From positions 62,001 to 126,000 of the forward strand of contig JBBELK010000440.1 in NCBI GenBank assembly GCA_037783545.1: 64,000 bases of DNA. The letters are read 5' to 3'. This document shows, one piece after another, positions 10,225 to 43,850 of this stretch. The notes beneath the pieces were generated by a model. The model saw only the letters and a program-made list of their open reading frames with translations. It did no database searches and had not been told where the DNA came from. Source of the DNA: Henricia sp. BOLD:AAB3569. Taxonomy: Eukaryota; Echinodermata; Asteroidea; Spinulosida; Echinasteridae. The position numbers and the translations under genes were made by a program. Positions within the stretch are counted from its first letter, which is position 1; every line of letters begins with the position of its first letter.

Positions 10225-10234
10225 CCCGACCGCC

Positions 10235-12605: not shown

Positions 12606-12615
12606 CCCGACCGCC

Positions 12616-12628
12616 CCAAACTGCGGTG
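12616..12628. repeat. Target-site duplication, right of SINE copy 2
   Basis: CCAAACTGCGGTG directly after the SINE head, matching 12318-12330. Confidence 0.92.
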
Positions 12629-14573: not shown

Positions 14574-14870
14574 TCAATTTTTTATGACAAGTGCGCAATA
14601 TAGAGAGTTTAGGGCATGCAAAATTTGAAGTTCGTCGGAACATTTTTCGACCTCCAAATTTGCCGACGTTTGGACCACACTTTGACCAAATTGCCGAGCC
14701 AAACTGCGGTGCGTTAACGACAGTCCGAATGACTGAGCATGCGCACAACTCAGGAGTACCCCAAAGAGGTGTGTACAGACAGCCACGGTTTGCGTGAGAG
14801 CAGCCAGGAAGCCTCAACCCAGTTTTTTCTAAACTTTGAAATTTCTCTGCCATTTCCCGGCGAAAGTCTG

Positions 14871-19595: not shown

Positions 19596-22500
19596 TCAAT
19601 TTTTTATGACAAGTGCGCAATATAGAGAGTTTAGGGCATGCAAAATTTGAAGTTCGTCGGAACATTTTTCGACCTCTAAATTTGCCGACGTTTGGACCAC
19701 ACTTTGACCAAATTGCCGAGCCAAACTGCGGTGCGTTAACGACAGTCCGAATGACTGAGCATGCGCACAACTCAGGAGTACCCCAAAGAGGTGTGTACAG
19801 ACAGCCACGGTTTGCGTGAGAGCAGTCAGGAAGCCTCAACCCAGTTTTTTCTAAACTTTGAAATTTCTCTGCCATTTCCCGGCGAAAGTCTGTCAATTTT
19901 TTTATGACAAGTGCGCAATATAGAGAGTTTAGGGCATGCAAAATTTGAAGTTCGTCGGAACATTTTTCGACCTCCAAATTTGCCGACGTTTGGACCACAC
20001 TTTGACCAAATTGCCGAGCCAAACTGCGGTGCGTTAACAACTCAGGAGTACCCCAAAGAGGTGTGTACAGACAGCCACGGTTTGCGTGAGAGCAGTCAGG
20101 AAGCCTCAACCCAGTTTTTTCTAAACTTTGAAATTTCTCTGCCATTTCCCGGCGAAAGTCTGTCAATTTTTTATGACAAGTGCGCAATATAGAGAGTTTA
20201 GGGCATGCAAAATTTGAAGTTCGTCGGAACATTTTTCGACCTCCAAATTTGCCGACGTTTGGACCACACTTTGACCAAATTGCCGAGCCAAACTGCGGTG
20301 CGTTAACGACAGTCCGAATGACTGAGCATGCGCACAACTCAGGAGTACCCCAAAGAGGTGTGTACAGACAGCCACGGTTTGCGTGAGAGCAGTCAGGAAG
20401 CCTCAACCCAGTTTTTTCTAAACTTTGAAATTTCTCTGCCATTTCCCGGCGAAAGTCTGTCAATTTTTTATGACAAGTGCGCAATATAGAGAGTTTAGGG
20501 CATGTAAAATTTGAAGTTCGTCGGAACATTTTTCGACCTCCAAATTTGCCGACGTTTGGACCACACTTTGACCAAATTGCCGAGCCAAACTGCGGTGCGT
20601 TAACGACAGTCCGAATGACTGAGCATGCGCACAACTCAGGAGTACCCCAAAGAGGTGTGTACAGACAGCCACGGTTTGCGTGAGAGCAGTCAGGAAGCCT
20701 CAACCCAGTTTTGTCTAAACTTTTAAATTTCTCTGCCATTTCCCGGCGAAAGTCTGTCAATTTTTTATGACAAGTGCGCAATATAGAGAGTTTAGGGCAT
20801 GTAAAATTTGAAGTTCGTCGGAACATTTTTCGACCTCCAAATTTGCCGACGTTTGGACCACACTTTGACCAAATTGCCGAGCCAAACTGCGGTGCGTTAA
20901 CGACAGTCCGAATGACTGAGCATGCGCACAACTCAGGAGTACCCCAAAGAGGTGTGTACAGACAGCCACGGTTTGCGTGAGAGCAGTCAGGAAGCCTCAA
21001 CCCAGTTTTTTTCTAAACTTTGAAATTTCTCTGCCATTTCCCGGCGAAAGTCTGTCAATTTTTTATGACAAGTGCGCAATATAGAGAGTTTAGGGCATGC
21101 AAAATTTGAAGTTCGTCGGAACATTTTTCGACCTCCAAATTTGCCGACGTTTGGACCACACTTTGACCAAATTGCCGAGCCAAACTGCGGTGCGTTAACG
21201 ACAGTCCGAATGACTGAGCATGCGCACAACTCAGGAGTACCCCAAAGAGGTGTGTACAGACAGCCACGGTTTGCGTGAGAGCAGTCAGGAAGCCTCAACC
21301 CAGTTTTTTCTAAACTTTGAAATTTCTCTGCCATTTCCCGGCGAAAGTCTGTCAATTTTTTTATGACAAGTGCGCAATATAGAGAGTTTAGGGCATGCAA
21401 AATTTGAAGTTCGTCGGAACATTTTTCGACCTCCAAATTTGCCGACGTTTGGACCACACTTTGACCAAATTGCCGAGCCAAACTGCGGTGCGTTAACAAC
21501 TCAGGAGTACCCCAAAGAGGTGTGTACAGACAGCCACGGTTTGCGTGAGAGCAGTCAGGAAGCCTCAACCCAGTTTTTTCTAAACTTTGAAATTTCTCTG
21601 CCATTTCCCGGCGAAAGTCTGTCAATTTTTTATGACAAGTGCGCAATATAGAGAGTTTAGGGCATGTAAAATTTGAAGTTCGTCGGAACATTTTTCGACC
21701 TCCAAATTTGCCGACGTTTGGACCACACTTTGACCAAATTGCCGAGCCAAACTGCGGTGCGTTAACGACAGTCCGAATGACTGAGCATGCGCACAACTCA
21801 GGAGTACCCCAAAGAGGTGTGTACAGACAGCCACGGTTTGCGTGAGAGCAGTCAGGAAGCCTCAACCCAGTTTTTTTCTAAACTTTGAAATTTCTCTGCC
21901 ATTTCCCGGCGAAAGTCTGTCAATTTTTTATGACAAGTGCGCAATATAGAGAGTTTAGGGCATGTAAAATTTGAAGTTCGTCGGAACATTTTTCGACCTC
22001 CAAATTTGCCGACGTTTGGACCACACTTTGACCAAATTGCCGAGCCAAACTGCGGTGCGTTAACGACAGTCCGAATGACTGAGCATGCGCACAACTCAGG
22101 AGTACCCCAAAGAGGTGTGTACAGACAGCCACGGTTTGCGTGAGAGCAGTCAGGAAGCCTCAACCCAGTTTTTTTCTAAACTTTAAAATTTCTCTGCCAT
22201 TTCCCGGCGAAAGTCTGTCAATTTTTTATGACAAGTGCGCAATATAGAGAGTTTAGGGCATGCAAAATTTGAAGTTCGTCGGAACATTTTTCGACCTCCA
22301 AATTTGCCGACGTTTGGACCACACTTTGACCAAATTGCCGAGCCAAACTGCGGTGCGTTAACGACAGTCCGAATGACTGAGCATGCGCACAACTCAGGAG
22401 TACCCCAAAGAGGTGTGTACAGACAGCCACGGTTTGCGTGAGAGCAGTCAGGAAGCCTCAACCCAGTTTTTTCTAAACTTTGAAATTTCTCTGCCATTTC

Positions 22501-23380
22501 CCGGCGAAAGTCTGTCAATTTTTTTATGACAAGTGCGCAATATAGAGAGTTTAGGGCATGCAAAATTTGAAGTTCGTCGGAACATTTTTCGACCTCCAAA
22601 TTTGCCGACGTTTGGACCACACTTTGACCAAATTGCCGAGCCAAACTGCGGTGCGTTAACAACTCAGGAGTACCCCAAAGAGGTGTGTACAGACAGCCAC
22701 GGTTTGCGTGAGAGCAGTCAGGAAGCCTCAACCCAGTTTTTTCTAAACTTTGAAATTTCTCTGCCATTTCCCGGCGAAAGTCTGTCAATTTTTTATGACA
22801 AGTGCGCAATATAGAGAGTTTAGGGCATGCAAAATTTGAAGTTCGTCGGAACATTTTTCGACCTCCAAATTTGCCGACGTTTGGACCACACTTTGACCAA
22901 ATTGCCGAGCCAAACTGCGGTGCGTTAACGACAGTCCGAATGACTGAGCATGCGCACAACTCAGGAGTACCCCAAAGAGGTGTGTACAGACAGCCACGGT
23001 TTGCGTGAGAGCAGTCAGGAAGCCTCAACCCAGTTTTTTCTAAACTTTGAAATTTCTCTGCCATTTCCCGGCGAAAGTCTGTCAATTTTTTATGACAAGT
23101 GCGCAATATAGAGAGTTTAGGGCATGTAAAATTTGAAGTTCGTCGGAACATTTTTCGACCTCCAAATTTGCCGACGTTTGGACCACACTTTGACCAAATT
23201 GCCGAGCCAAACTGCGGTGCGTTAACGACAGTCCGAATGACTGAGCATGCGCACAACTCAGGAGTACCCCAAAGAGGTGTGTACAGACAGCCACGGTTTG
23301 CGTGAGAGCAGTCAGGAAGCCTCAACCCAGTTTTTTTCTAAACTTTGAAATTTCTCTGCCATTTCCCGGCGAAAGTCTGT
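19596..23380. repeat. 5,541-bp-offset block duplication, copy A (3.8 kb)
   Basis: Matches 25137-28921. Shared rare variants are GACCTCTAAATTTG near 19675/25216, T-run-of-seven junctions, GGCATGTAAAATTT in several monomers, CTTTTAAATTTCTC near 20720/26261, CTTTAAAATTTCTC near 22183/27724, and 28-bp-deletion monomers in the same order. One clear difference is TATGACAAGTG near 20173 against TATGAGAAGTG near 25714. Confidence 0.85.
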
Positions 23381-25136
23381 CAATTTTTTATGACAAGTGC
23401 GCAATATAGAGAGTTTAGGGCATGCAAAATTTGAAGTTCGTCGGAACATTTTTCGACCTCCAAATTTGCCGATGTTTGGACCACACTTTGACCAAATTGC
23501 CGAGCCAAACTGCGGTGCGTTAACGACAGTCCGAATGACTGAGCATGCGCACAACTCAGGAGTACCCCAAAGAGGTGTGTACAGACAGCCACGGTTTGCG
23601 TGAGAGCAGTCAGGAAGCCTCAACCCAGTTTTTTCTAAACTTTGAAATTTCTCTGCCATTTCCCGGCGAAAGTCTGTCAATTTTTTTATGACAAGTGCGC
23701 AATATAGAGAGTTTAGGGCATGCAAAATTTGAAGTTCGTCGGAACATTTTTCGACCTCGAAATTTGCCGACGTTTGGACCACACTTTGACCAAATTGCCG
23801 AGCCAAACTGCGGTGCGTTAACAACTCAGGAGTACCCCAAAGAGGTGTGTACAGACAGCCACGGTTTGCGTGAGAGCAGTCAGGAAGCCTCAACCCAGTT
23901 TTTTCTAAACTTTGAAATTTCTCTGCCATTTCCCGGCGAAAGTCTGTCAATTTTTTTATGACAAGTGCGCAATATAGAGAGTTTAGGGCATGCAAAATTT
24001 GAAGTTCGTCGGAACATTTTTCGACCTCCAAATTTGCCGACGTTTGGACCACACTTTGACCAAATTGCCGAGCCAAACTGCGGTGCGTTAACGACAGTCC
24101 GAATGACTGAGCATGCGCACAACTCAGGAGTACCCCAAAGAGGTGTGTACAGACAGCCACGGTTTGCGTGAGAGCAGTCAGGAAGCCTCAACCCAGTTTT
24201 TTCTAAACTTTGAAATTTCTCTGCCATTTCCCGGCGAAAGTCTGTCAATTTTTTATGAGAAGTGCGCAATATAGAGAGTTTAGGGCATGCAAAATTTGAA
24301 GTTCGTCGGAACATTTTTCGACCTCCAAATTTGCCGACGTTTGGACCACACTTTGACCAAATTGCCGAGCCAAACTGCGGTGCGTTAACGACAGTCCGAA
24401 TGACTGAGCATGCGCACAACTCAGGAGTACCCCAAAGAGGTGTGTACAGACAGCCACGGTTTGCGTGAGAGCAGTCAGGAAGCCTCAACCCAGTTTTTTC
24501 TAAACTTTGAAATTTCTCTGCCATTTCCCGGCGAAAGTCTGTCATTTTTTTATGACAAGTGCGCAATATAGAGAGTTTAGGGCATGCAAAATTTGAAGTT
24601 CGTCGGAACATTTTTCGACCTCCAAATTTGCCGACGTTTGGACCACACTTTGACCAAATTGCCGAGCCAAACTGCGGTGCGTTAACGACAGTCCGAATGA
24701 CTGAGCATGCGCACAACTCAGGAGTACCCCAAAGAGGTGTGTACAGACAGCCACGGTTTGCGTGAGAGCAGTCAGGAAGCCTCAACCCAGTTTTTTCTAA
24801 ACTTTGAAATTTCTCTGCCATTTCCCGGCGAAAGTCTGTCAATTTTTTATGACAAGTGCGCAATATAGAGAGTTTAGGGCATGCAAAATTTGAAGTTCGT
24901 CGGAACATTTTTCGACCTCCAAATTTGCCGACGTTTGGACCACACTTTGACCAAATTGCCGAGCCAAACTGCGGTGCGTTAACGACAGTCCGAATGACTG
25001 AGCATGCGCACAACTCAGGAGTACCCCAAAGAGGTGTGTACAGACAGCCACGGTTTGCGTGAGAGCAGTCAGGAAGCCTCAACCCAGTTTTTTTCTAAAC
25101 TTTGAAATTTCTCTGCCATTTCCCGGCGAAAGTCTG

Positions 25137-28100
25137 TCAATTTTTTATGACAAGTGCGCAATATAGAGAGTTTAGGGCATGCAAAATTTGAAGTTCGTCG
25201 GAACATTTTTCGACCTCTAAATTTGCCGACGTTTGGACCACACTTTGACCAAATTGCCGAGCCAAACTGCGGTGCGTTAACGACAGTCCGAATGACTGAG
25301 CATGCGCACAACTCAGGAGTACCCCAAAGAGGTGTGTACAGACAGCCACGGTTTGCGTGAGAGCAGTCAGGAAGCCTCAACCCAGTTTTTTCTAAACTTT
25401 GAAATTTCTCTGCCATTTCCCGGCGAAAGTCTGTCAATTTTTTTATGACAAGTGCGCAATATAGAGAGTTTAGGGCATGCAAAATTTGAAGTTCGTCGGA
25501 ACATTTTTCGACCTCCAAATTTGCCGACGTTTGGACCACACTTTGACCAAATTGCCGAGCCAAACTGCGGTGCGTTAACAACTCAGGAGTACCCCAAAGA
25601 GGTGTGTACAGACAGCCACGGTTTGCGTGAGAGCAGTCAGGAAGCCTCAACCCAGTTTTTTCTAAACTTTGAAATTTCTCTGCCATTTCCCGGCGAAAGT
25701 CTGTCAATTTTTTATGAGAAGTGCGCAATATAGAGAGTTTAGGGCATGCAAAATTTGAAGTTCGTCGGAACATTTTTCGACCTCCAAATTTGCCGACGTT
25801 TGGACCACACTTTGACCAAATTGCCGAGCCAAACTGCGGTGCGTTAACGACAGTCCGAATGACTGAGCATGCGCACAACTCAGGAGTACCCCAAAGAGGT
25901 GTGTACAGACAGCCACGGTTTGCGTGAGAGCAGTCAGGAAGCCTCAACCCAGTTTTTTCTAAACTTTGAAATTTCTCTGCCATTTCCCGGCGAAAGTCTG
26001 TCAATTTTTTATGACAAGTGCGCAATATAGAGAGTTTAGGGCATGTAAAATTTGAAGTTCGTCGGAACATTTTTCGACCTCCAAATTTGCCGACGTTTGG
26101 ACCACACTTTGACCAAATTGCCGAGCCAAACTGCGGTGCGTTAACGACAGTCCGAATGACTGAGCATGCGCACAACTCAGGAGTACCCCAAAGAGGTGTG
26201 TACAGACAGCCACGGTTTGCGTGAGAGCAGTCAGGAAGCCTCAACCCAGTTTTGTCTAAACTTTTAAATTTCTCTGCCATTTCCCGGCGAAAGTCTGTCA
26301 ATTTTTTATGACAAGTGCGCAATATAGAGAGTTTAGGGCATGTAAAATTTGAAGTTCGTCGGAACATTTTTCGACCTCCAAATTTGCCGACGTTTGGACC
26401 ACACTTTGACCAAATTGCCGAGCCAAACTGCGGTGCGTTAACGACAGTCCGAATGACTGAGCATGCGCACAACTCAGGAGTACCCCAAAGAGGTGTGTAC
26501 AGACAGCCACGGTTTGCGTGAGAGCAGTCAGGAAGCCTCAACCCAGTTTTTTTCTAAACTTTGAAATTTCTCTGCCATTTCCCGGCGAAAGTCTGTCAAT
26601 TTTTTATGACAAGTGCGCAATATAGAGAGTTTAGGGCATGCAAAATTTGAAGTTCGTCGGAACATTTTTCGACCTCCAAATTTGCCGACGTTTGGACCAC
26701 ACTTTGACCAAATTGCCGAGCCAAACTGCGGTGCGTTAACGACAGTCCGAATGACTGAGCATGCGCACAACTCAGGAGTACCCCAAAGAGGTGTGTACAG
26801 ACAGCCACGGTTTGCGTGAGAGCAGTCAGGAAGCCTCAACCCAGTTTTTTCTAAACTTTGAAATTTCTCTGCCATTTCCCGGCGAAAGTCTGTCAATTTT
26901 TTTATGACAAGTGCGCAATATAGAGAGTTTAGGGCATGCAAAATTTGAAGTTCGTCGGAACATTTTTCGACCTCCAAATTTGCCGACGTTTGGACCACAC
27001 TTTGACCAAATTGCCGAGCCAAACTGCGGTGCGTTAACAACTCAGGAGTACCCCAAAGAGGTGTGTACAGACAGCCACGGTTTGCGTGAGAGCAGTCAGG
27101 AAGCCTCAACCCAGTTTTTTCTAAACTTTGAAATTTCTCTGCCATTTCCCGGCGAAAGTCTGTCAATTTTTTATGACAAGTGCGCAATATAGAGAGTTTA
27201 GGGCATGTAAAATTTGAAGTTCGTCGGAACATTTTTCGACCTCCAAATTTGCCGACGTTTGGACCACACTTTGACCAAATTGCCGAGCCAAACTGCGGTG
27301 CGTTAACGACAGTCCGAATGACTGAGCATGCGCACAACTCAGGAGTACCCCAAAGAGGTGTGTACAGACAGCCACGGTTTGCGTGAGAGCAGTCAGGAAG
27401 CCTCAACCCAGTTTTTTTCTAAACTTTGAAATTTCTCTGCCATTTCCCGGCGAAAGTCTGTCAATTTTTTATGACAAGTGCGCAATATAGAGAGTTTAGG
27501 GCATGTAAAATTTGAAGTTCGTCGGAACATTTTTCGACCTCCAAATTTGCCGACGTTTGGACCACACTTTGACCAAATTGCCGAGCCAAACTGCGGTGCG
27601 TTAACGACAGTCCGAATGACTGAGCATGCGCACAACTCAGGAGTACCCCAAAGAGGTGTGTACAGACAGCCACGGTTTGCGTGAGAGCAGTCAGGAAGCC
27701 TCAACCCAGTTTTTTTCTAAACTTTAAAATTTCTCTGCCATTTCCCGGCGAAAGTCTGTCAATTTTTTATGACAAGTGCGCAATATAGAGAGTTTAGGGC
27801 ATGCAAAATTTGAAGTTCGTCGGAACATTTTTCGACCTCCAAATTTGCCGACGTTTGGACCACACTTTGACCAAATTGCCGAGCCAAACTGCGGTGCGTT
27901 AACGACAGTCCGAATGACTGAGCATGCGCACAACTCAGGAGTACCCCAAAGAGGTGTGTACAGACAGCCACGGTTTGCGTGAGAGCAGTCAGGAAGCCTC
28001 AACCCAGTTTTTTCTAAACTTTGAAATTTCTCTGCCATTTCCCGGCGAAAGTCTGTCAATTTTTTTATGACAAGTGCGCAATATAGAGAGTTTAGGGCAT

Positions 28101-28921
28101 GCAAAATTTGAAGTTCGTCGGAACATTTTTCGACCTCCAAATTTGCCGACGTTTGGACCACACTTTGACCAAATTGCCGAGCCAAACTGCGGTGCGTTAA
28201 CAACTCAGGAGTACCCCAAAGAGGTGTGTACAGACAGCCACGGTTTGCGTGAGAGCAGTCAGGAAGCCTCAACCCAGTTTTTTCTAAACTTTGAAATTTC
28301 TCTGCCATTTCCCGGCGAAAGTCTGTCAATTTTTTATGACAAGTGCGCAATATAGAGAGTTTAGGGCATGCAAAATTTGAAGTTCGTCGGAACATTTTTC
28401 GACCTCCAAATTTGCCGACGTTTGGACCACACTTTGACCAAATTGCCGAGCCAAACTGCGGTGCGTTAACGACAGTCCGAATGACTGAGCATGCGCACAA
28501 CTCAGGAGTACCCCAAAGAGGTGTGTACAGACAGCCACGGTTTGCGTGAGAGCAGTCAGGAAGCCTCAACCCAGTTTTTTCTAAACTTTGAAATTTCTCT
28601 GCCATTTCCCGGCGAAAGTCTGTCAATTTTTTATGACAAGTGCGCAATATAGAGAGTTTAGGGCATGTAAAATTTGAAGTTCGTCGGAACATTTTTCGAC
28701 CTCCAAATTTGCCGACGTTTGGACCACACTTTGACCAAATTGCCGAGCCAAACTGCGGTGCGTTAACGACAGTCCGAATGACTGAGCATGCGCACAACTC
28801 AGGAGTACCCCAAAGAGGTGTGTACAGACAGCCACGGTTTGCGTGAGAGCAGTCAGGAAGCCTCAACCCAGTTTTTTTCTAAACTTTGAAATTTCTCTGC
28901 CATTTCCCGGCGAAAGTCTGT
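25137..28921. repeat. 5,541-bp-offset block duplication, copy B (3.8 kb)
   Basis: Second copy of the 19596-23380 block. The copies stop matching at about 28.92 kb, where copy B continues with TATGAGAAGTG and ACCCGAAAGAG monomers. Its TATGAGAAGTG monomer near 25714 is shared with neighbours at 24245 and 29785 but not with copy A, which suggests local conversion after the duplication. Confidence 0.85.
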
Positions 28922-29516
28922 CAATTTTTTATGAGAAGTGCGCAATATAGAGAGTTTAGGGCATGCAAAATTTGAAGTTCGTCGGAACATTTTTCGACCT
29001 CCAAATTTGCCGACGTTTGGACCACACTTTGACCAAATTGCCGAGCCAAACTGCGGTGCGTTAACGACAGTCCGAATGACTGAGCATGCGCACAACTCAG
29101 GAGTACCCGAAAGAGGTGTGTACAGACAGCCACGGTTTGCGTGAGAGCAGTCAGGAAGCCTCAACCCAGTTTTTTCTAAACTTTGAAATTTCTCTGCCAT
29201 TTCCCGGCGAAAGTCTGTCAATTTTTTATGACAAGTGCGCAATATAGAGAGTTTAGGGCATGCAAAATTTGAAGTTCGTCGGAACATTTTTCGACCTCCA
29301 AATTTGCCGACGTTTGGACCACACTTTGACCAAATTGCCGAGCCAAACTGCGGTGCGTTAACGACAGTCCGAATGACTGAGCATGCGCACAACTCAGGAG
29401 TACCCCAAAGAGGTGTGTACAGACAGCCACGGTTTGCGTGAGAGCAGTCAGGAAGCCTCAACCCAGTTTTTTCTAAACTTTGAAATTTCTCTGCCATTTC
29501 CCGGCGAAAGTCTGTC

Positions 29517-30621
29517 AATTTTTTTATGACAAGTGCGCAATATAGAGAGTTTAGGGCATGCAAAATTTGAAGTTCGTCGGAACATTTTTCGACCTCCAAA
29601 TTTGCCGACGTTTGGACCACACTTTGACCAAATTGCCGAGCCAAACTGCGGTGCGTTAACAACTCAGGAGTACCCCAAAGAGGTGTGTACAGACAGCCAC
29701 GGTTTGCGTGAGAGCAGTCAGGAAGCCTCAACCCAGTTTTTTCTAAACTTTGAAATTTCTCTGCCATTTCCCGGCGAAAGTCTGTCAATTTTTTATGAGA
29801 AGTGCGCAATATAGAGAGTTTAGGGCATGCAAAATTTGAAGTTCGTCGGAACATTTTTCGACCTCCAAATTTGCCGACGTTTGGACCACACTTTGACCAA
29901 ATTGCCGAGCCAAACTGCGGTGCGTTAACGACAGTCCGAATGACTGAGCATGCGCACAACTCAGGAGTACCCCAAAGAGGTGTGTACAGACAGCCACGGT
30001 TTGCGTGAGAGCAGTCAGGAAGCCTCAACCCAGTTTTTTCTAAACTTTGAAATTTCTCTGCCATTTCCCGGCGAAAGTCTGTCAATTTTTTATGACAAGT
30101 GCGCAATATAGAGAGTTTAGGGCATGTAAAATTTGAAGTTCGTCGGAACATTTTTCGACCTCCAAATTTGCCGACGTTTGGACCACACTTTGACCAAATT
30201 GCCGAGCCAAACTGCGGTGCGTTAACGACAGTCCGAATGACTGAGCATGCGCACAACTCAGGAGTACCCCAAAGAGGTGTGTACAGACAGCCACGGTTTG
30301 CGTGAGAGCAGTCAGGAAGCCTCAACCCAGTTTTGTCTAAACTTTTAAATTTCTCTGCCATTTCCCGGCGAAAGTCTGTCAATTTTTTATGACAAGTGCG
30401 CAATATAGAGAGTTTAGGGCATGTAAAATTTGAAGTTCGTCGGAACATTTTTCGACCTCCAAATTTGCCGACGATTGGACCACACTTTGACCAAATTGCC
30501 GAGCCAAACTGCGGTGCGTTAACGACAGTCCGAATGACTGAGCATGCGCACAACTCAGGAGTACCCCAAAGAGGTGTGTACAGACAGCCACGGTTTGCGT
30601 GAGAGCAGTCAGGAAGCCTCA
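29517..30621. repeat. 4,081-bp-offset partial repeat of the same block
   Basis: Four monomers that repeat 25436-26540: a 28-bp-deletion monomer, then TATGAGAAGTG, then GGCATGTAAAA with CTTTTAAATTTC, then another GGCATGTAAAA. The last carries a private CCGACGATTGG near 30474. It is a third, partial member of the 5.5-kb family. Confidence 0.78.
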
Positions 30622-32460: not shown

Positions 32461-33798
32461 TCAATTTTTTATGACAAGTGCGCAATATAGAGAGTTTAGG
32501 GCATGCAAAATTTGAAGTTCGTCGGAACATTTTTCGACCTCCAAATTTGCCGACGTTTGGACCACACTTTGACCAAATTGCAGAGCCAAACTGCGGTGCG
32601 TTAACGACAGTCCGAATGACTGAGCATGCGCACAACTCAGGAGTACCCCAAAGAGGTGTGTACAGTCAGGAAGCCTCAACCCATTTTTTTCTAAACTTTG
32701 AAATTTCTCTGCCATTTCCCGGCGAAAGTCTGTCAATTTTTTATGACAAGTGCGCAATATAGAGAGTTTAGGGCATGCAAAATTTGAAGTTCGTCGGAAC
32801 ATTTTTCGACCTCCAAATTTGCCGACGTTTGGACCACACTTTGACCAAATTGCCGAGCCAAACTGCGGTGCGTTAACGACAGTCCGAATGACTGAGCATG
32901 CGCACAACTCAGGAGTACCCCAAAGAGGTGTGTACAGACAGCCACGGTTTGCGTGAGAGCAGTCAGGAAGCCTCAACCCAGTTTTTTCTAAACTTTGAAA
33001 TTTCTCTGCCATTTCCCGGCGAAAGTCTGTCAATTTTTTATGACAAGTGCGCAATATAGAGAGTTTAGGGCATGCAAAATTTGAAGTTCGTCGGAACATT
33101 TTTCGACCTCCAAATTTGCCGACGTTTGGACCACACTTTGACCAAATTGCCGAGCCACACTGCGGTGCGTTAACGACAGTCCGAATGACTGAGCATGCGC
33201 ACAACTCAGGAGTACCCCAAAGAGGTGTGTACAGACAGCCACGGTTTGCGTGAGAGCAGTCAGGAAGCCTCAACCCAGTTTTGTCTAAACTTTGAAATTT
33301 CTCTGCCATTTCCCGGCGAAAGTCTGTCAATTTTTTATGACAAGTGCGCAATATAGAGAGTTTAGGGCATGCAAAATTTGAAGTTCGTCGGAACATTTTT
33401 CGACCTCCAAATTTGCCGACGTTTGGACCACACTTTGACCAAATTGCCGAGCCAAACTGCGGTGCGTTAACGACAGTCCGAATGACTGAGCATGCGCACA
33501 ACTCAGGAGTACCCCAAAGAGGTGTGTACAGACAGCCACGGTTTGCGTGAGAGCAGTCAGGAAGCCTCAACCCAGTTTTGTCTAAACTTTGAAATTTCTC
33601 TGCCATTTCCCGGCGAAAGTCTGTCAATTTTTTATGACAAGTGCGCAATATAGAGAGTTTAGGGCATGCAAAATTTGAAGTTCGTCGGAACATTTTTCGA
33701 CCTCCAAATTTGCCGACGTTTGGACCACACTTTGACCAAATTGCCGAGCCAAACTGCGGTGCGTTAACGACAGTCCGAATGACTGAGCATGCGCACAA
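32461..33798. repeat. 1.34-kb higher-order block, copy 1 of 3
   Basis: Block with ATTGCAGAGCC near 32578, a 25-bp-deletion monomer, GCCACACTGCGG near 33157, two GTTTTGTCTAAAC tracts, and the start of a second 25-bp-deletion monomer. It recurs at +3,518 and at +5,635 bp with the same internal lengths. Confidence 0.87.
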
Positions 33799-33829
33799 CT
33801 CAGGAGTACCCCAAAGAGGTGTGTACAGT

Positions 33830-34730
33830 CAGGAAGCCTCAACCCAGTTTTTTCTAAACTTTGAAATTTCTCTGCCATTTCCCGGCGAAAGTCTGTCAAT
33901 TTTTTTATGACAAGTGCGCAATATAGAGAGTTTAGGGCATGCAAAATTTGAAGTTCGTCGGAACATTTTTCGACCTCCAAATTTGCCGACGTTTGGACCA
34001 CACTTTGACCAAATTGCCGAGCCAAACTGCGGTGCGTTAACGACAGTCCGAATGACTGAGCATGCGCACAACTCAGGAGTACCCCAAAGAGGTGTGTACA
34101 GACAGCCACGGTTTGCGTGAGAGCAGTCAGGAAGCCTCAACCCAGTTTTTTCTAAACCTTGAAATTTCTCTGCCATTTCCCGGCGAAAGTCTGTCAATTT
34201 TTTATGACAAGTGCGCAATATAGAGAGTTTAGGGCATGCAAAATTTGAAGTTCGTCGGAACATTTTTCGACCTCCAAATTTGCCGACGTTTGGACCACAC
34301 TTTGACCAAATTGCCGAGCCAAACTGCGGTGCGTTAACGACAGTCCGAATGACTGAGCATGCGCACAACTCAGGAGTACCCCAAAGAGGTGTGTACAGAC
34401 AGCCACGGTTTGCGTGAGAGCAGTCAGGAAGCCTCAACCCAGTTTTTTCTAAACTTTGAAATTTCTCTGCCATTTCCCGGCGAAAGTCTGTCAATTTTTT
34501 ATGACAAGTGCGCAATATAGAGAGTATAGGGCATGCTAAATTTGAAGTTCGTCGGAACATTTTTCGACCTCCAAATTTGCCGACGTTTGGACCACACTTT
34601 GACCAAATTGCCGAGCCAAACTGCGGTGCGTTAACGACAGTCCGAATGACTGAGCATGCGCACAACTCAGGAGTACCCCAAAGAGGTGTGTACAGACAGC
34701 CACGGTTTGCGTGAGAGCAGTCAGGAAGCC
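33830..34730. repeat. 5,721-bp-offset block, copy A
   Basis: Three monomers, with TAAACCTTGAA near 34153 and the double variant GAGTATAGGGCATGCTAAATT near 34522. Both recur 5,721 bp downstream in the stretch next to the composite insert. Confidence 0.82.
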
Positions 34731-34788
34731 TCAACCCAGTTTTTTTCTAAACTTTGAAATTTCTCTGCCATTTCCCGGCGAAAGTCTG

Positions 34789-35524
34789 TCAATTTTTTAT
34801 GACAAGTGCGCAATATAGAGAGTTTAGGGCATGCAAAATTTGAAGTTCGTCGGAACATTTTTCGACCTCCAAATTTGCCGACGTTTGGACCACACTTTGA
34901 CCAAATTGCCGAGCCAAACTGCGGTGCGTTAACGACAGTCCGAATGACTGAGCATGCGCACAACTCAGGAGTACCCCAAAGAGGTGTGTACAGACAGCCA
35001 CGGTTTGCGTGAGAGCAGTCAGGAAGCCTCAACCCAGTTTTTTCTAAACTTTGAAATTTCTCTGCCATTTCCCGGCGAAAGTCTGTCAATTTTTTTATGA
35101 CAAGTGCGCAATATAGAGAGTTTAGGGCATGCAAAATTTGAAGTTCGTCGGAAAATTTTTCGACCTCCAAATTTGCCGACGTTTGGACCACACTTTGACC
35201 AAATTGCCGAGCCAAACTGCGGTGCGTTAACGACAGTCCGAATGACTGAGCATGCGCACAACTCAGGAGTACCCCAAAGAGGTGTGTACAGACAGCCACG
35301 GTTTGCGTGAGAGCAGTCAGGAAGCCTCAACCCAGTTTTTTCTAAACTTTGAAATTTCTCTGCCATTTCCCGGCGAAAGTCTGTCAATTTTTTTATGACA
35401 AGTGCGCAATATAGAGAGTTTAGGGCATGCAAAATTTGAAGTTCGTCGGAACATTTTTCGACCTCCAAATTTGCCGACGTTTGGACCACACTTTGACCAA
35501 ATTGCCGAGCCAAACTGCGGTGCG
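34789..35524. repeat. 4,112-bp-offset block, copy B
   Basis: Partner of 30677-31412, with GTCGGAAAATTT near 35147 and the same T-run of seven. The next monomer (35682-35905) instead matches 28921-29144 (TATGAGAAGTG plus ACCCGAAAGAG), so this stretch is a mosaic. Confidence 0.66.
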
Positions 35525-35978
35525 TTAACGACAGTCCGAATGACTGAGCATGCGCACAACTCAGGAGTACCCCAAAGAGGTGTGTACAGACAGCCACGGT
35601 TTGCGTGAGAGCAGTCAGGAAGCCTCAACCCAGTTTTTTCTAAACTTTGAAATTTCTCTGCCATTTCCCGGCGAAAGTCTGTCAATTTTTTATGAGAAGT
35701 GCGCAATATAGAGAGTTTAGGGCATGCAAAATTTGAAGTTCGTCGGAACATTTTTCGACCTCCAAATTTGCCGACGTTTGGACCACACTTTGACCAAATT
35801 GCCGAGCCAAACTGCGGTGCGTTAACGACAGTCCGAATGACTGAGCATGCGCACAACTCAGGAGTACCCGAAAGAGGTGTGTACAGACAGCCACGGTTTG
35901 CGTGAGAGCAGTCAGGAAGCCTCAACCCAGTTTTTTCTAAACTTTGAAATTTCTCTGCCATTTCCCGGCGAAAGTCTG

Positions 35979-37316
35979 TCAATTTTTTATGACAAGTGCG
36001 CAATATAGAGAGTTTAGGGCATGCAAAATTTGAAGTTCGTCGGAACATTTTTCGACCTCCAAATTTGCCGACGTTTGGACCACACTTTGACCAAATTGCA
36101 GAGCCAAACTGCGGTGCGTTAACGACAGTCCGAATGACTGAGCATGCGCACAACTCAGGAGTACCCCAAAGAGGTGTGTACAGTCAGGAAGCCTCAACCC
36201 ATTTTTTTCTAAACTTTGACATTTCTCTGCCATTTCCCGGCGAAAGTCTGTCAATTTTTTATGACAAGTGCGCAATATAGAGAGTTTAGGGCATGCAAAA
36301 TTTGAAGTTCGTCGGAACATTTTTCGACCTCCAAATTTGCCGACGTTTGGACCACACTTTGACCAAATTGCCGAGCCAAACTGCGGTGCGTTAACGACAG
36401 TCCGAATGACTGAGCATGCGCACAACTCAGGAGTACCCCAAAGAGGTGTGTACAGACAGCCACGGTTTGCGTGAGAGCAGTCAGGAAGCCTCAACCCAGT
36501 TTTTTCTAAACTTTGAAATTTCTCTGCCATTTCCCGGCGAAAGTCTGTCAATTTTTTATGACAAGTGCGCAATATAGAGAGTTTAGGGCATGCAAAATTT
36601 GAAGTTCGTCGGAACATTTTTCGACCTCCAAATTTGCCGACGTTTGGACCACACTTTGACCAAATTGCCGAGCCACACTGCGGTGCGTTAACGACAGTCC
36701 GAATGACTGAGCATGCGCACAACTCAGGAGTACCCCAAAGAGGTGTGTACAGACAGCCACGGTTTGCGTGAGAGCAGTCAGGAAGCCTCAACCCAGTTTT
36801 GTCTAAACTTTGAAATTTCTCTGCCATTTCCCGGCGAAAGTCTGTCAATTTTTTATGACAAGTGCGCAATATAGAGAGTTTAGGGCATGCAAAATTTGAA
36901 GTTCGTCGGAACATTTTTCGACCTCCAAATTTGCCGACGTTTGGACCACACTTTGACCAAATTGCCGAGCCAAACTGCGGTGCGTTAACGACAGTCCGAA
37001 TGACTGAGCATGCGCACAACTCAGGAGTACCCCAAAGAGGTGTGTACAGACAGCCACGGTTTGCGTGAGAGCAGTCAGGAAGCCTCAACCCAGTTTTGTC
37101 TAAACTTTGAAATTTCTCTGCCATTTCCCGGCGAAAGTCTGTCAATTTTTTATGACAAGTGCGCAATATAGAGAGTTTAGGGCATGCAAAATTTGAAGTT
37201 CGTCGGAACATTTTTCGACCTCCAAATTTGCCGACGTTTGGACCACACTTTGACCAAATTGCCGAGCCAAACTGCGGTGCGTTAACGACAGTCCGAATGA
37301 CTGAGCATGCGCACAA
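35979..37316. repeat. 1.34-kb higher-order block, copy 2 of 3
   Basis: Same marker order as copy 1, with one private change, TTTGACATTTC near 36217 where the other copies have TTTGAAATTTC. Offsets are 3,518 bp from copy 1 and 2,117 bp to copy 3. Confidence 0.87.
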
Positions 37317-37718
37317 CTCAGGAGTACCCCAAAGAGGTGTGTACAGTCAGGAAGCCTCAACCCAGTTTTTTCTAAACTTTGAAATTTCTCTGCCATTTCC
37401 AGGCGAAAGTCTGTCAATTTTTTATGACAAGTGCGCAATATAGAGAGTTTAGGGCATGCAAAATTTGAAGTTGGTCGGAACATTTTTCGACCTCCAAATT
37501 TGCCGACGTTTGGACCACACTTTGACCAAATTGCCGAGCCAAACTGCGGTGCGTTAACGACAGTCCGAATGACTGAGCATGCGCACAACTCAGGAGTACC
37601 CCAAAGAGGTGTGTACAGACAGCCACGGTTTGCGTGAGAGCAGTCAGGAAGCCTCAACCCAGTTTTTTTCTAAACTTTGAAATTTCTCTGCCATTTCCCG
37701 GCGAAAGTCTGTCAATTT

Positions 37719-37806
37719 GCGTGAGAGCAGTCAGGAAGCCTCAACCCAGTTTTTTCTAAACTTTGAAATTTCTCTGCCATTTCCCGGCGAAAGTCTGTCA
37801 ATTTTT
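37719..37806. repeat. Partial 88-bp monomer, occurrence 1
   Basis: After GTCTGTCAATTT the array jumps back to GCGTGAGAGCAGTCAGG, so the last ~88 bp of a monomer are repeated before the next full monomer. The local period is 385 (297+88) bp. TTTG is shared at the joint, consistent with microhomology. Confidence 0.85.
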
Positions 37807-38095
37807 TTATGACAAGTGCGCAATATAGAGAGTTTAGGGCATGCAAAATTTGAAGTTCGTCGGAACATTTTTCGACCTCCAAATTTGCCGACGTTTGGAC
37901 CACACTTTGACCAAATTGCCGAGCCAAACTGCGGTGCGTTAACGACAGTCCGAATGACTGAGCATGCGCACAACTCAGGAGTACCCCAAAGAGGTGTGTA
38001 CAGACAGCCACGGTTTGCGTAAGAGCAGTCAGGAAGCCTCAACCCAGTTTTTTCTAAACTTTGAAATTTCTCTGCCATTTCCCGGCGAAAGTCTG

Positions 38096-39433
38096 TCAAT
38101 TTTTTATGACAAGTGCGCAATATAGAGAGTTTAGGGCATGCAAAATTTGAAGTTCGTCGGAACATTTTTCGACCTCCAAATTTGCCGACGTTTGGACCAC
38201 ACTTTGACCAAATTGCAGAGCCAAACTGCGGTGCGTTAACGACAGTCCGAATGACTGAGCATGCGCACAACTCAGGAGTACCCCAAAGAGGTGTGTACAG
38301 TCAGGAAGCCTCAACCCATTTTTTTCTAAACTTTGAAATTTCTCTGCCATTTCCCGGCGAAAGTCTGTCAATTTTTTATGACAAGTGCGCAATATAGAGA
38401 GTTTAGGGCATGCAAAATTTGAAGTTCGTCGGAACATTTTTCGACCTCCAAATTTGCCGACGTTTGGACCACACTTTGACCAAATTGCCGAGCCAAACTG
38501 CGGTGCGTTAACGACAGTCCGAATGACTGAGCATGCGCACAACTCAGGAGTACCCCAAAGAGGTGTGTACAGACAGCCACGGTTTGCGTGAGAGCAGTCA
38601 GGAAGCCTCAACCCAGTTTTTTCTAAACTTTGAAATTTCTCTGCCATTTCCCGGCGAAAGTCTGTCAATTTTTTATGACAAGTGCGCAATATAGAGAGTT
38701 TAGGGCATGCAAAATTTGAAGTTCGTCGGAACATTTTTCGACCTCCAAATTTGCCGACGTTTGGACCACACTTTGACCAAATTGCCGAGCCACACTGCGG
38801 TGCGTTAACGACAGTCCGAATGACTGAGCATGCGCACAACTCAGGAGTACCCCAAAGAGGTGTGTACAGACAGCCACGGTTTGCGTGAGAGCAGTCAGGA
38901 AGCCTCAACCCAGTTTTGTCTAAACTTTGAAATTTCTCTGCCATTTCCCGGCGAAAGTCTGTCAATTTTTTATGACAAGTGCGCAATATAGAGAGTTTAG
39001 GGCATGCAAAATTTGAAGTTCGTCGGAACATTTTTCGACCTCCAAATTTGCCGACGTTTGGACCACACTTTGACCAAATTGCCGAGCCAAACTGCGGTGC
39101 GTTAACGACAGTCCGAATGACTGAGCATGCGCACAACTCAGGAGTACCCCAAAGAGGTGTGTACAGACAGCCACGGTTTGCGTGAGAGCAGTCAGGAAGC
39201 CTCAACCCAGTTTTGTCTAAACTTTGAAATTTCTCTGCCATTTCCCGGCGAAAGTCTGTCAATTTTTTATGACAAGTGCGCAATATAGAGAGTTTAGGGC
39301 ATGCAAAATTTGAAGTTCGTCGGAACATTTTTCGACCTCCAAATTTGCCGACGTTTGGACCACACTTTGACCAAATTGCCGAGCCAAACTGCGGTGCGTT
39401 AACGACAGTCCGAATGACTGAGCATGCGCACAA
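38096..39433. repeat. 1.34-kb higher-order block, copy 3 of 3
   Basis: Same marker order as copies 1 and 2. As at copy 1, the monomer before it has the rare GCGTAAGAGC (near 38019; near 32384 at copy 1). Confidence 0.87.
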
Positions 39434-39537
39434 CTCAGGAGTACCCCAAAGAGGTGTGTACAGTCAGGAAGCCTCAACCCAGTTTTTTCTAAACTTTGAA
39501 ATTTCTCTGCCATTTCCCGGCGAAAGTCTGTCAATTT

Positions 39538-39624
39538 GCGTGAGAGCAGTCAGGAAGCCTCAACCCAGTTTTTTCTAAACTTTGAAATTTCTCTGCCATT
39601 TCCCGGCGAAAGTCTGTCAATTTT
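39538..39624. repeat. Partial 87/88-bp monomer, occurrence 2
   Basis: Same TCAATTT-to-GCGTGAG joint as at 37719, here after a 25-bp-deletion monomer. The local period is 359 bp. The shared breakpoint shows common descent. Confidence 0.85.
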
Positions 39625-40451
39625 TTTATGACAAGTGCGCAATATAGAGAGTTTAGGGCATGCAAAATTTGAAGTTCGTCGGAACATTTTTCGACCTCCA
39701 AATTTGCCGACGTTTGGACCACACTTTGACCAAATTGCCGAGCCAAACTGCGGTGCGTTAACGACAGTCCGAATGACTGAGCATGCGCACAACTCAGGAG
39801 TACCCCAAAGAGGTGTGTACAGACAGCCACGGTTTGCGTGAGAGCAGTCAGGAAGCCTCAACCCAGTTTTTTCTAAACCTTGAAATTTCTCTGCCATTTC
39901 CCGGCGAAAGTCTGTCAATTTTTTATGACAAGTGCGCAATATAGAGAGTTTAGGGCATGCAAAATTTGAAGTTCGTCGGAACATTTTTCGACCTCCAAAT
40001 TTGCCGACGTTTGGACCACACTTTGACCAAATTGCCGAGCCAAACTGCGGTGCGTTAACGACAGTCCGAATGACTGAGCATGCGCACAACTCAGGAGTAC
40101 CCCAAAGAGGTGTGTACAGACAGCCACGGTTTGCGTGAGAGCAGTCAGGAAGCCTCAACCCAGTTTTTTCTAAACTTTGAAATTTCTCTGCCATTTCCCG
40201 GCGAAAGTCTGTCAATTTTTTATGACAAGTGCGCAATATAGAGAGTATAGGGCATGCTAAATTTGAAGTTCGTCGGAACATTTTTCGACCTCCAAATTTG
40301 CCGACGTTTGGACCACACTTTGACCAAATTGCCGAGCCAAACTGCGGTGCGTTAACGACAGTCCGAATGACTGAGCATGCGCACAACTCAGGAGTACCCC
40401 AAAGAGGTGTGTACAGACAGCCACGGTTTGCGTGAGAGCAGTCAGGAAGCC
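39551..40451. repeat. 5,721-bp-offset block, copy B
   Basis: Partner of 33830-34730, with TAAACCTTGAA near 39874 and GAGTATAGGGCATGCTAAATT near 40243. It ends about 180 bp before the composite insert, so the block was probably copied separately from the insert. Confidence 0.82.
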
Positions 40452-40641
40452 TCAACCCAGTTTTTTCTAAACTTTGAAATTTCTCTGCCATTTCCCGGCG
40501 AAAGTCTGTCAATTTTTTATGACAAGTGCGCAATATAGAGAGTTTAGGGCATGCAAAATTTGAAGTTCGTCGGAACATTTTTCGACCTCCAAATTTGCCG
40601 ACGTTTGGACCACACTTTGACCAAATTGCCTTTTTCTAAAA

Positions 40642-40665
40642 TGTTTTATTCGTCCGAATAAAACA
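40642..40665. repeat. Perfect inverted repeat, copy 1
   Basis: Arms TGTTTTATTCG and CGAATAAAACA (11 bp each) around a TC loop. Read on the minus strand the left edge gives AATAAA, then about nine bases, then AAAAA, which resembles a polyadenylation signal with a short A-tract. The A-tract is only 5-6 bases and is present in both copies, so this is weak evidence for a retroposed RNA end. Confidence 0.85.
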
Positions 40666-40720
40666 CGCTAACCAGTCCAACGTTGTTACCGATAGAACCA
40701 GTGCTTCAGCAGCCGTTGTC

Positions 40721-40968
40721 GTTGCCAGTCCAGGTCATTTATCCACTAAGCGTTCGCCGTTATTGCCAAATTTCCTCATTCGTAGTCGTTGCCAGTCCAG
40801 GTCATTTATCCACTAAGCGTTCGCCGTTATTGCCAAATTTCCTCATTCGTAGTCGTTGCCAGTCCAGGTCATTTATCCACCAATTGTTCGCCGTTATTGC
40901 CAAATTTCCTCATTCGTTGTCGTTGCCAGTCCAGGTCATTTATCCACCAAATTTCCTCATTCGTTGTC
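40721..40968. repeat. 67-bp minisatellite, copy 1
   Basis: Units start with GTTGCCAGTCCAGGTCATTT: three of 67 bp (40721, 40788, 40855) and one of 47 bp (40922) that lacks 20 bp between two CCAA motifs. A degenerate start (GTTGCCAATCCAGGTCATTA) follows at 40969. Since 67 is not a multiple of three, successive units shift frame and overlapping open frames appear in all registers. This argues against coding. Confidence 0.9.
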
Positions 40969-41168
40969 GTTGCCAATCCAGGTCATTATCCGGCGAGTAT
41001 TCTCCATCACAATCATCACCAATATTGGTCGATCGTGTCCGAGTATCAGGTCATATCCTTCGAGAAGCACCACAGGTACATCCTCATAAAACCACAATCG
41101 TCACCAGTCCAGGTCTGGAAGAATCAAGACCGCAGACTCGGATCCAATCGTGTTCCTTTTTTCTAAAA

Positions 41169-41192
41169 TGTTTTATTCGTCCGAATAAAACA
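41169..41192. repeat. Perfect inverted repeat, copy 2
   Basis: Same 11-bp arms and TC loop as at 40642-40665, offset by 527 bp. The opening T-run here is six bases. Confidence 0.85.
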
Positions 41193-41244
41193 CGCTAACC
41201 AGTCCAACGTTGTTACCGATAGAACCAGTGCTTCAGCCGTTGTC

Positions 41245-41492
41245 GTTGCCAGTCCAGGTCATTTATCCACTAAGCGTTCGCCGTTATTGCCAAATTTCCT
41301 CATTCGTAGTCGTTGCCAGTCCAGGTCATTTATCCACTAAGCGTTCGCCGTTATTGCCAAATTTCCTCATTCGTAGTCGTTGCCAGTCCAGGTCATTTAT
41401 CCACCAATTGTTCGCCGTTATTGCCAAATTTCCTCATTCGTTGTCGTTGCCAGTCCAGGTCATTTATCCACCAAATTTCCTCATTCGTTGTC
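41245..41492. repeat. 67-bp minisatellite, copy 2
   Basis: Same array as copy 1 at +524 bp: 67-bp units at 41245, 41312 and 41379, a 47-bp unit at 41446, and a degenerate start at 41493. The 20-bp deletion in the last unit is shared, so it predates the duplication. Confidence 0.9.
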
Positions 41493-41680
41493 GTTGCCAA
41501 TCCAGGTCATTATCCGGCGAGTATTCTCCATCACAATCATCACCAATCTTGGTCGATCGTGTCCGAGTATCAGGTCATATCCTTCGAGAAGCACCACAGG
41601 TACATCCTCATAAAACCACAATCGTCACCAGTCCAGGTCTGGAAGAATCAAGACCGCAGACTCGGATCCAATCGTGTTCC

Positions 41681-41826
41681 AAAATTGCATCGGCGTTCCC
41701 CGTGACGTACGTACTGGTCACTCCATCATTGAGCAACGTTCCAGGACATCACGGGATTCCGCGAAAAACTCCTCCAAACTACCTATGTGCAAGGGTAGTC
41801 CTTTGGAAAGCGGTCATCACAGGCCA
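41681..41826. other. Unrecognised single-copy segment of the insert (146 bp)
   Basis: Starts at AAAATTGCATCGGCGTTCCC and ends at GGTCATCACAGGCCA, right before the SINE head. It matches neither the satellite, the insert units nor the rest of the SINE. Open frames cross it in two plus-strand registers but run on into minisatellite and satellite, so they are not evidence of a gene. It may be a fragment of another transposable element or of flanking genomic DNA. Confidence 0.7.
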
Positions 41827-41860
41827 GCGAGGAAAGAACCCGTACGCCAACCCGACCGCC
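41827..41860 (-). mobile_element. Truncated SINE: first 34 bp only
   Basis: GCGAGGAAAGAACCCGTACG and the next 14 bases equal the last 34 plus-strand bases of both full SINEs (10201-10234 and 12582-12615). The A-box region is kept; the B box, body and tail are gone. The same 13-bp flank follows at the same base, so it descends from the same insertion event. Confidence 0.9.
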
Positions 41861-41873
41861 CCAAACTGCGGTG
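41861..41873. repeat. Right target-site flank of the truncated SINE
   Basis: CCAAACTGCGGTG, identical to the right duplications at 10235 and 12616. The matching left copy is absent; the left flank stops at AAATTGCC at 40630. Confidence 0.88.
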
Positions 41874-41910
41874 CGTTAACGACCGAGCCAAACTGCGGTG
41901 CGTTAACGAC
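41861..41910. repeat. 23-bp direct duplication beside the insert
   Basis: The stretch from CCAAACTGCGGTG to GTTAACGAC occurs at 41861-41883 and again at 41888-41910, separated by CGAG. An intact monomer has it once. It could be a repair scar or a deletion joining two neighbouring monomers. Confidence 0.88.
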
Positions 41911-41966
41911 AGTCCGAATGACTGAGCATGCGCACAACTCAGGAGTACCCCAAAGAGGTGTGTAGA

Positions 41967-42450
41967 GACAGCCACGGTTTGCGTGAGAGCAGTCAGGAAG
42001 CCTCAACCCAGTTTTTTCTAAACTTTGAAATTTCTCTGCCATTTCCCGGCGAAAGTCTGTCAATTTTTTATGACAAGTGCGCAATATAGAGAGTTTAGGG
42101 CATGCAAAATTTGAAGTTCGTCGGAACATTTTTCGACCTCCAAATTTGCCGACGTTTGGACCACACTTTGACCAAATTGCCGAGCCAAACTGCGGTGCGT
42201 TAACGACAGTCCGAATGACTGAGCATGCGCACAACTCAGGAGTTTAGGGCATGCAAAATTTGAAGTTCGTCGGAACATTTTTCGACCTCCAAATTTGCCG
42301 ACGTTTGGACCACACTTTGACCAAATTGCCGAGCCAAACTGCGGTGCGTTAACGACAGTCCGAATGACTGAGCATGCGCACAACTCAGGAGTACCCCAAA
42401 GAGGTGTGTACAGACAGCCACGGTTTGCGTGAGAGCAGTCAGGAAGCCTC
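41967..42450. repeat. 1,400-bp-offset block with fused monomer, copy A
   Basis: At about 42240 CAACTCAGGAG runs straight into TTTAGGGCATGC, skipping the monomer part from TACCCC through the T-run and GCGCAATATAGA. GAG is shared at the joint. The same fused monomer recurs at +1,400 bp. Confidence 0.84.
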
Positions 42451-43082
42451 AACCCAGTTTTTTCTAAACTTTAAAATTTCTCTGCCATTTCCCGGCGAAA
42501 GTCTGTCAATTTTTTATGACAAGTGCGCAATATAGAGAGTTTAGGGCATGCAAAATTTGAAGTTCGTCGGAACATTTTTCGACCTCCAAATTTGCCGACG
42601 TTTGGACCACACTTTGACCAAATTGCCGAGCCAAACTGCGGTGCGTTAACGACAGTCCGAATGACTGAGCATGCGCACAACTCAGGAGTACCCCAAAGAG
42701 GTGTGTACAGTCAGGAAGCCTCAACCCAGTTTTTTCTAAACTTTGAAATTTCTCTGCCATTTCCCGGCGAAAGTCTGTCAATTTTTTATGACAAGTGCGC
42801 AATATAGAGAGTTTAGGGCATGCAAAATTTGAAGTTCGTCGGAACATTTTTCGACCTCCAAATTTGCCGACGTTTGGACCACACTTTGACCAAATTGCCG
42901 AGCCAAACTGCGGTGCGTTAACGACAGTCCGAATGACTGAGCATGCGCACAACTCAGGAGTACCCCAAAGAGGTGTGTACAGACAGCCACGGTTTGCGTG
43001 AGAGCAGTCAGGAAGCCTCAACCCAGTTTTTTTCTAAACTTTGAAATTTCTCTGCCATTTCCCGGCGAAAGTCTGTCAATTT

Positions 43083-43170
43083 GCGTGAGAGCAGTCAGGA
43101 AGCCTCAACCCAGTTTTTTCTAAACTTTGAAATTTCTCTGCCATTTCCCGGCGAAAGTCTGTCAATTTTT
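43083..43170. repeat. Partial 88-bp monomer, occurrence 3
   Basis: Same joint as at 37719 and 39538, again with a 385-bp local period. Its presence on the far side of the insert shows that the satellite flanking the insert on both sides belongs to one lineage. Confidence 0.85.
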
Positions 43171-43366
43171 TTATGACAAGTGCGCAATATAGAGAGTTTA
43201 GGGCATGCAAAATTTGAAGTTCGTCGGAACATTTTTCGACCTCCAAATTTGCCGACGTTTGGACCACACTTTGACCAAATTGCCGAGCCAAACTGCGGTG
43301 CGTTAACGACAGTCCGAATGACTGAGCATGCGCACAACTCAGGAGTACCCCAAAGAGGTGTGTACA

Positions 43367-43850
43367 GACAGCCACGGTTTGCGTGAGAGCAGTCAGGAAG
43401 CCTCAACCCAGTTTTTTCTAAACTTTGAAATTTCTCTGCCATTTCCCGGCGAAAGTCTGTCAATTTTTTATGACAAGTGCGCAATATAGAGAGTTTAGGG
43501 CATGCAAAATTTGAAGTTCGTCGGAACATTTTTCGACCTCCAAATTTGCCGACGTTTGGACCACACTTTGACCAAATTGCCGAGCCAAACTGCGGTGCGT
43601 TAACGACAGTCCGAATGACTGAGCATGCGCACAACTCAGGAGTTTAGGGCATGCAAAATTTGAAGTTCGTCGGAACATTTTTCGACCTCCAAATTTGCCG
43701 ACGTTTGGACCACACTTTGACCAAATTGCCGAACCAAACTGCGGTGCGTTAACGACAGTCCGAATGACTGAGCATGCGCACAACTCAGGAGTACCCCAAA
43801 GAGGTGTGTACAGACAGCCACGGTTTGCGTGAGAGCAGTCAGGAAGCCTC
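43367..43850. repeat. 1,400-bp-offset block with fused monomer, copy B
   Basis: Same CAGGAG-to-TTTAGGG fusion near 43640. It differs from copy A by GCCGAACCAAAC near 43730. The joint is identical, so it is a duplication and not a second deletion. Confidence 0.84.

Follow-up and report, generated by a model that had tools for sequence, protein, structure and literature searches.

A 1,254-bp insert (40631-41884) interrupts an otherwise continuous satellite array, and it is best read, with a probability of about 0.5, as the product of a single repair event, by template switching or patch capture, in which 57 bp would have been copied from a satellite monomer bearing a SINE. The array is made of a 297-bp monomer and fills the window, i.e. 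the whole stretch of 64,000 nucleotides that was analysed (1-64000, 215.6 copies as counted by TRF). When the monomer is aligned to the window by BLAST, three stretches are left without cover, namely the two intact SINEs at 9950-10234 and 12331-12615 and the insert at 40631-41882, the last of these gaps taking in 23 copied satellite bases that are too short for the monomer to cover. The features on which the argument depends are the following.

9950-10234, minus strand: intact SINE, copy 1, 285 bp, with CCAAACTGCGGTG on both sides
12331-12615, minus strand: intact SINE, copy 2, identical to copy 1, with the same flanking duplication, inside a duplicated array segment
40334-40630, plus strand: left satellite flank, its final 297 bp (one monomer length), which close with ...AAATTGCC
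40631-41154, plus strand: first unit copy (U1), 524 bp, with a T5 run, a palindrome at 40642-40665 and 67-bp subrepeats at 40714-40947
41155-41156, plus strand: CC between the two unit copies, found also at the end of the left flank (40629-40630) and after the second copy (41679-41680)
41157-41678, plus strand: second unit copy (U2), 522 bp; compared with U1, it has a single substitution, a 3-bp indel and a leading T-run that differs by one T
41681-41826, plus strand: a further piece (F3), 146 bp, single in the window
41827-41860, minus strand: 5' end of the SINE, its first 34 bp, with no difference from the intact copies
41861-41883, plus strand: copied satellite, 23 bp, made of the 13-bp duplication CCAAACTGCGGTG and 10 more bases
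41883-42243, plus strand: plain satellite after the insert, from phase 295 (CCGAGCC...) to the next irregular joint at 42240-42243

The flanks carry the first part of the evidence. On the left, the satellite ends with TTGCC, three bases (GAG) short of where the duplication would start, as an earlier note on this DNA had rightly reported. On the right, beyond the 57-bp tract, the satellite does not continue with AGTCC... and makes instead a new start with CCGAGCC at phase 295 (CCGAGCCAAACTG...), which is the phase where the left flank stopped and corresponds to a 27-bp jump back (phase shift +27). This restart had been missed in the earlier note, whose observations are mostly sound but whose term "replaced", applied to a SINE at this site, is not borne out by the sequence: once 40631-41884 is removed, the flanks meet as AAATTGCC/GAGCCAAAC, TTGCC/GAGCC, in perfect phase and with no loss. 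The joined flanks match plain satellite across the joint, at best 33826-35270 over 1,445 bp at 99.7%. Among the 25 best alignments that extend 200 bases past the joint in both directions, the longest reaches 3,325 bp at 95.5% to 35897-39145, and the other 24 extend over 1,445-1,458 bp at 99.18-99.72%. Because the phase of the array is unbroken without it, the insert is, as judged from the letters of the array, an addition to plain satellite devoid of SINE and not an exchange for one. No satellite was deleted at its joints, and it is accompanied by no target-site duplication of 5 bp or more, at most by CC. The overlap at the right joint amounts to 1 bp (C), which is at chance level as at least 1 bp is reached in 43% of random joints, and the overlap at the left joint to 0-2 bp, 2 (CC) being the figure if a CC stood before the unit at its source, as one does before the second copy. 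These overlaps of 0-2 bp are weak evidence and do not show the use of microhomology at the insert's own joints.

Regarding the SINE itself, both intact copies are bounded on both sides by the 13-bp target-site duplication CCAAACTGCGGTG and carry a simple-repeat 3' tail, (CAA)n, on the minus strand; they include GGTTCGAATCC, presumably a box-B-like motif of the pol III type. No tRNA was detected over the window by ARAGORN (bacterial code), the five weak Rfam matches within 9900-10300 comprise none to a tRNA, and a literature text search with three strings of SINE letters gave no occurrence. At E up to 1e-3, the SINE is represented in the window by the two whole copies and the 34-bp piece in the insert, and by nothing more. 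Since the two copies are identical and lie inside a duplicated segment (7857-14711, 4,477 bp at 99.26%, offset 2,378-2,381 bp), they most likely record one insertion that was multiplied with the array, not two.

The right end of the insert keeps the first 34 bp of this SINE followed by CCAAACTGCGGTG, at the very junction of the intact copies (10234/10235 and 12615/12616), and 251 bp of the 285-bp SINE are absent; both points had been made in the earlier note and are confirmed here. The identity to the SINE-bearing monomers runs on to exactly 57 bp (41827-41883), i.e. 34 bp of SINE and 23 bp of satellite, with no shared base past either end, and identical tracts lie at 10201 and 12582, 31.6 and 29.2 kb from the insert. 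The SINE head and its junction most likely go back to the insertion that also gave rise to the two intact SINEs, while the piece, with its 23 bp of attached satellite, does not look like the remnant of a SINE formerly present here. A match breaking so sharply at both ends is what a copied tract would leave.

The sequence of events would be as follows. A break or a collapsed fork would have occurred in plain, SINE-less satellite at TTGCC/GAGCC and would have been closed by a patch of pieces copied elsewhere, namely two copies of the unit, a 146-bp stretch of other sequence and a 57-bp tract of a SINE-bearing monomer, after which synthesis or end joining would have led back to the broken monomer at the point of departure. 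None of the satellite would have been lost in the process, the gain being restricted to the 23 copied bases and the ambiguous CC. We infer that the whole took place in a single event, that the source of the 57 bp was a SINE-bearing monomer of this array or of a sister array, and that repair enzymes of the microhomology type were at work. Template switching in repair, which the earlier note had proposed in the form of gap repair, is retained as the leading mechanism. Its other option, an insertion into the SINE followed by deletion, is not supported at this site but may have taken place elsewhere, at a donor locus.

The surroundings of the insert add to the case for repair. Besides the SINEs and the composite insert, a phase scan for shifts of more than 3 bp finds satellite-satellite joints of four kinds, of -28, -25, +86 and -148 bp, present in 9, 7, 3 and 2 copies, respectively, with overlaps of 2, 3, 3 and 4 bp; for four random joints in this monomer, the sum of these overlaps has P = 0.0006. 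The four kinds of irregular joint mark a higher-order duplication of the array; their sites are 18579-29660, 32665-42710, 37718/39537/43082 and 42243/43643. To the right of the insert, 42240-43643 (1,404 bp) is a 99.6% copy of 36876-38279 on the left, and at both of its ends lies the -148 joint, whose overlap is 4 bp. Given the four kinds of joint with overlaps of 2-4 bp and the irregular copy that adjoins the insert, the neighbourhood of the latter is one of microhomology-type rejoining.

Several points weigh on the other side. Repair of a break often loses some bases and a loss-free return is unusual, which counts against a repair origin. For about 1.2 of the 1.25 kb, no donor was found in the window or in the searched collections, so that the patch may have been preformed. 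Besides, the two unit copies lie flush with the left joint, which suggests a discrete element. For the 1.2 kb that it called unrelated DNA, the earlier note had overlooked the makeup, i.e. two tandem units (524 and 522 bp) and 146 bp of other sequence.

The two units are identical in 520 of 524 aligned columns. Each contains central tandem arrays of 67 bp (3.5 copies) and 47 bp (2 copies) and a 24-bp palindrome whose stem measures 11 bp (at 40642-40665 in U1 and 41169-41192 in U2, at distances of 11 and 12 bp from the respective left ends), a stem length reached by none of 300 dinucleotide shuffles of U1. At the left boundary stands a T-run of 5 (U1) or 6 (U2), and the unit is entered after CC both from the flank and from the end of U1, at a position that is constant to within one T. 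The tandem amounts to exactly two copies, flush with the left joint, for which the chance is about 1% within 2 bp if the break fell at random in a 522-bp unit. A random piece copied from a longer tandem would not be expected to have such a flush two-unit length; either the unit may have a true end at this position, or a single template may have been entered two times at one and the same position. The start of U2 (41157-41167) reads TTTTTTCTAAA, an 11-base word found in the satellite monomer too (in U1, one T shorter, 40631-40640); a word of 11 bases common to unit and satellite is reached by 6 of 300 unit shuffles, and its presence in both may reflect chance or an old link. A status of long terminal repeats was considered for the two copies and rejected, as they stand 2 bp apart with no body between.

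Coding capacity and relatives were also looked for. Two plus-strand frames run without stops, 40662-41195 (178 codons) and 41189-41884 (232 codons), and the minus strand of the insert holds no open frame of 50 codons or more. Within U1 the plus-strand frame is 164 codons long, a length attained by 4 of 300 shuffles, and these long frames are probably an effect of the 67-bp repeat, which lacks stops in three frames. No match up to E = 1 was returned by Rfam over 40500-42000, nor by Pfam for the two longest open frames, one of which passes through F3. Exact patterns, which miss diverged relatives and did not include F3 on its own, gave 0 matches in viral_contigs (one satellite, one unit and two SINE patterns) and 0 in genome_contigs (unit and satellite), and blastn with the insert against plasmids gave no match.

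Much of this anatomy bears on a different origin, in which the composite was preformed: a mobile element, e.g. a Helentron-type rolling-circle element, would have landed in or beside a SINE-bearing monomer, and a read-through copy with its 57-bp flank would then have been inserted cleanly in plain satellite. Such an origin is rather unlikely. The exact head-to-tail pair flush with the left joint, the central 67-bp repeats, the 11-bp-stem palindrome 11-12 bp from one end, the T-run at that same boundary and the lack of any target-site duplication beyond CC all speak for it, and the tandem repeats, end palindrome, boundary Ts and read-through capture described for Helentrons (PMC4067079) parallel the unit. 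However, clear paired subterminal inverted repeats are missing: in the outer 70 and 90 bp, under five definitions of the element and with 0 or 1 mismatch allowed, the best inverted terminal matches measure 5-10 bp and are attained in 9 to 91 shuffles out of 100, the smallest count (9/100) belonging to a 10-bp match in F3 alone. Neither is the target TT, since it reads TTGCC/GAGCC, and Ts stand at one boundary only; furthermore, the window holds no other copy of the composite and the two longest open frames are without Pfam match. The fuller version of this scenario, according to which the unit is a discrete, as yet undescribed rolling-circle or retro element and the composite its read-through product, with two copies and a captured SINE flank delivered precisely into the satellite without target-site duplication, is decidedly unlikely.

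Replacement in place, the very claim of the earlier note, supposes that gap repair put 1.2 kb in the place of most of a SINE in this monomer, together with its left duplication, and that a second change added the 27-bp restart. The SINE head and junction identical to those of the intact copies would fit, as would a left flank ending only three bases from the left duplication. Yet the array is in perfect phase with the insert removed, and the exchange needs a second joint, no more than 23 bp from the SINE end, whose restart falls on the phase where the left flank stopped; the odds of this are 5/297 if random within ±2 bases. Besides, the flanks resemble the SINE sites less than most plain sites do. 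Over 1,090 bp on the left and 356 bp on the right, limits chosen to fall short of the irregular joints nearby, the flanks of the composite show 14 changes on the left and 6 on the right against both SINE sites with the SINE removed. Of 202 plain sites (210 matched, less the two SINE sites and 6 close to the ends of the window), 170 on the left and 186 on the right are at least as close to the SINE sites as the composite is; some of the 202 extend over a SINE, the insert or an irregular joint, which worsens their score. This comparison goes against replacement without being decisive, as homogenisation of the array could erase a former kinship. That this monomer once held a SINE, later exchanged, is thus not supported and improbable.

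A retrocopy of a chimeric minus-strand RNA, made of a satellite leader, the SINE head, F3, the two units and a short A-run and inserted without the usual target-site duplication, is very unlikely. On the minus strand each unit ends with AATAAA, 9 bases and then 5-6 A, like a short polyadenylated end, and chimeric insertions of LINE-1 with other RNAs occur occasionally (PMC13174262). The A-run is only 5-6 long, however, and the palindrome places AATAAA on both strands; no target-site duplication of 5 bp or more is present, and a junction equal to that of the older insertion would demand a transcript through that very site. An independent insertion of the composite after the manner of a SINE likewise finds no target-site duplication of its own, none extending beyond CC.

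An assembly artefact, i.e. a chimeric join within the near-identical array, can be given hardly any credit: 64 kb of near-identical 297-bp repeats are hard to assemble and the composite is single in the window, but the joints keep the exact phase of the monomer and a misjoin is not expected to restore phase to the base. Recombination of a circle through satellite homology was rejected, for it would leave one copy of the homology on each side whereas both copies stand at the right; simple 27-bp slippage at CGAC was also rejected, the second copy having the GAG of the plain monomer and not the letters of the SINE side, although slippage followed by conversion to plain sequence is possible.

If the repair reading is right, the insert shows at base resolution how a break inside a satellite array was repaired with SINE-bearing monomers of that satellite as template, and the order of events, with the SINE insertion first and the patch later, becomes readable in DNA that is usually too uniform for it. 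It would also show that sharing an insertion junction, in a satellite, is no proof of the insertion having been present at the site itself. Were the unit a mobile element prone to read-through, it would provide a route for a satellite array to receive and recycle pieces of its own past insertions.

Among known systems, the templated insertions reported for polymerase theta-dependent end joining in Drosophila average under 10 bp and are far shorter than the satellite insert (PMC2895639). At nuclease breaks in mouse zygotes (RMDR), several retroelement pieces are described as captured in series with microhomologies of 1-5 bp (PMC4516963); the insert likewise consists of several truncated pieces in a row without a retroelement-type target-site duplication, but in the mouse case both the break and the donors are known. 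As described in PMC5120786, complex insertions of the FoSTeS/MMBIR type arise by serial template switches, with blunt joints, overlaps of 1-3 bp or longer ones reaching 18 bp, and templated insertions between 6 bp and 13 kb in size; they go with large copy-number changes, unlike the loss-free return on a scale of about 1 kb seen here. Human class 2 templated insertions (class 2 TSIP), as characterised in PMC5110952, lack target-site duplication, show end-joining features at their joints and have their donor elsewhere. The insert resembles them in lacking a target-site duplication of 5 bp or more and perhaps in its joints, and 57 bp of it have identical tracts 31.6 and 29.2 kb away. It differs by its 1,254 bp, made of at least three pieces with the unit present twice, when the human experimental events measure 73-414 bp, and by its host, a satellite array, and its piece from a SINE-bearing monomer, when the human screen discards alpha satellite (PMC5110952). 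Class 2 TSIP also call for the absence of a poly(A) signal and tract, and the units display AATAAA, 9 bases and A5-6 on the minus strand.

Some copies of Helentron-type elements are reported to hold tandem repeats; in the mite, a palindrome lies some 8-35 bp away from the 3' end. The elements have variable Ts at their boundaries and prefer TT, and bypassed termination may yield tandem arrays together with captured host sequence (PMC4067079). With HINE/DINE-1 elements the insert shares central tandem repeats, a palindrome near one end, the lack of target-site duplication and possible tandem copies, and boundary Ts at one end only (PMC4067079, PMC7492417). Because it has neither the clear paired subterminal inverted repeats (11-15 bp) of HINEs nor a TT target, it is not filed here as Helentron-type, although read-through of such an element could give much the same arrangement. 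Set beside these systems, the composite is most likely an ordinary repair scar of a known kind, one that happens to be neatly readable.
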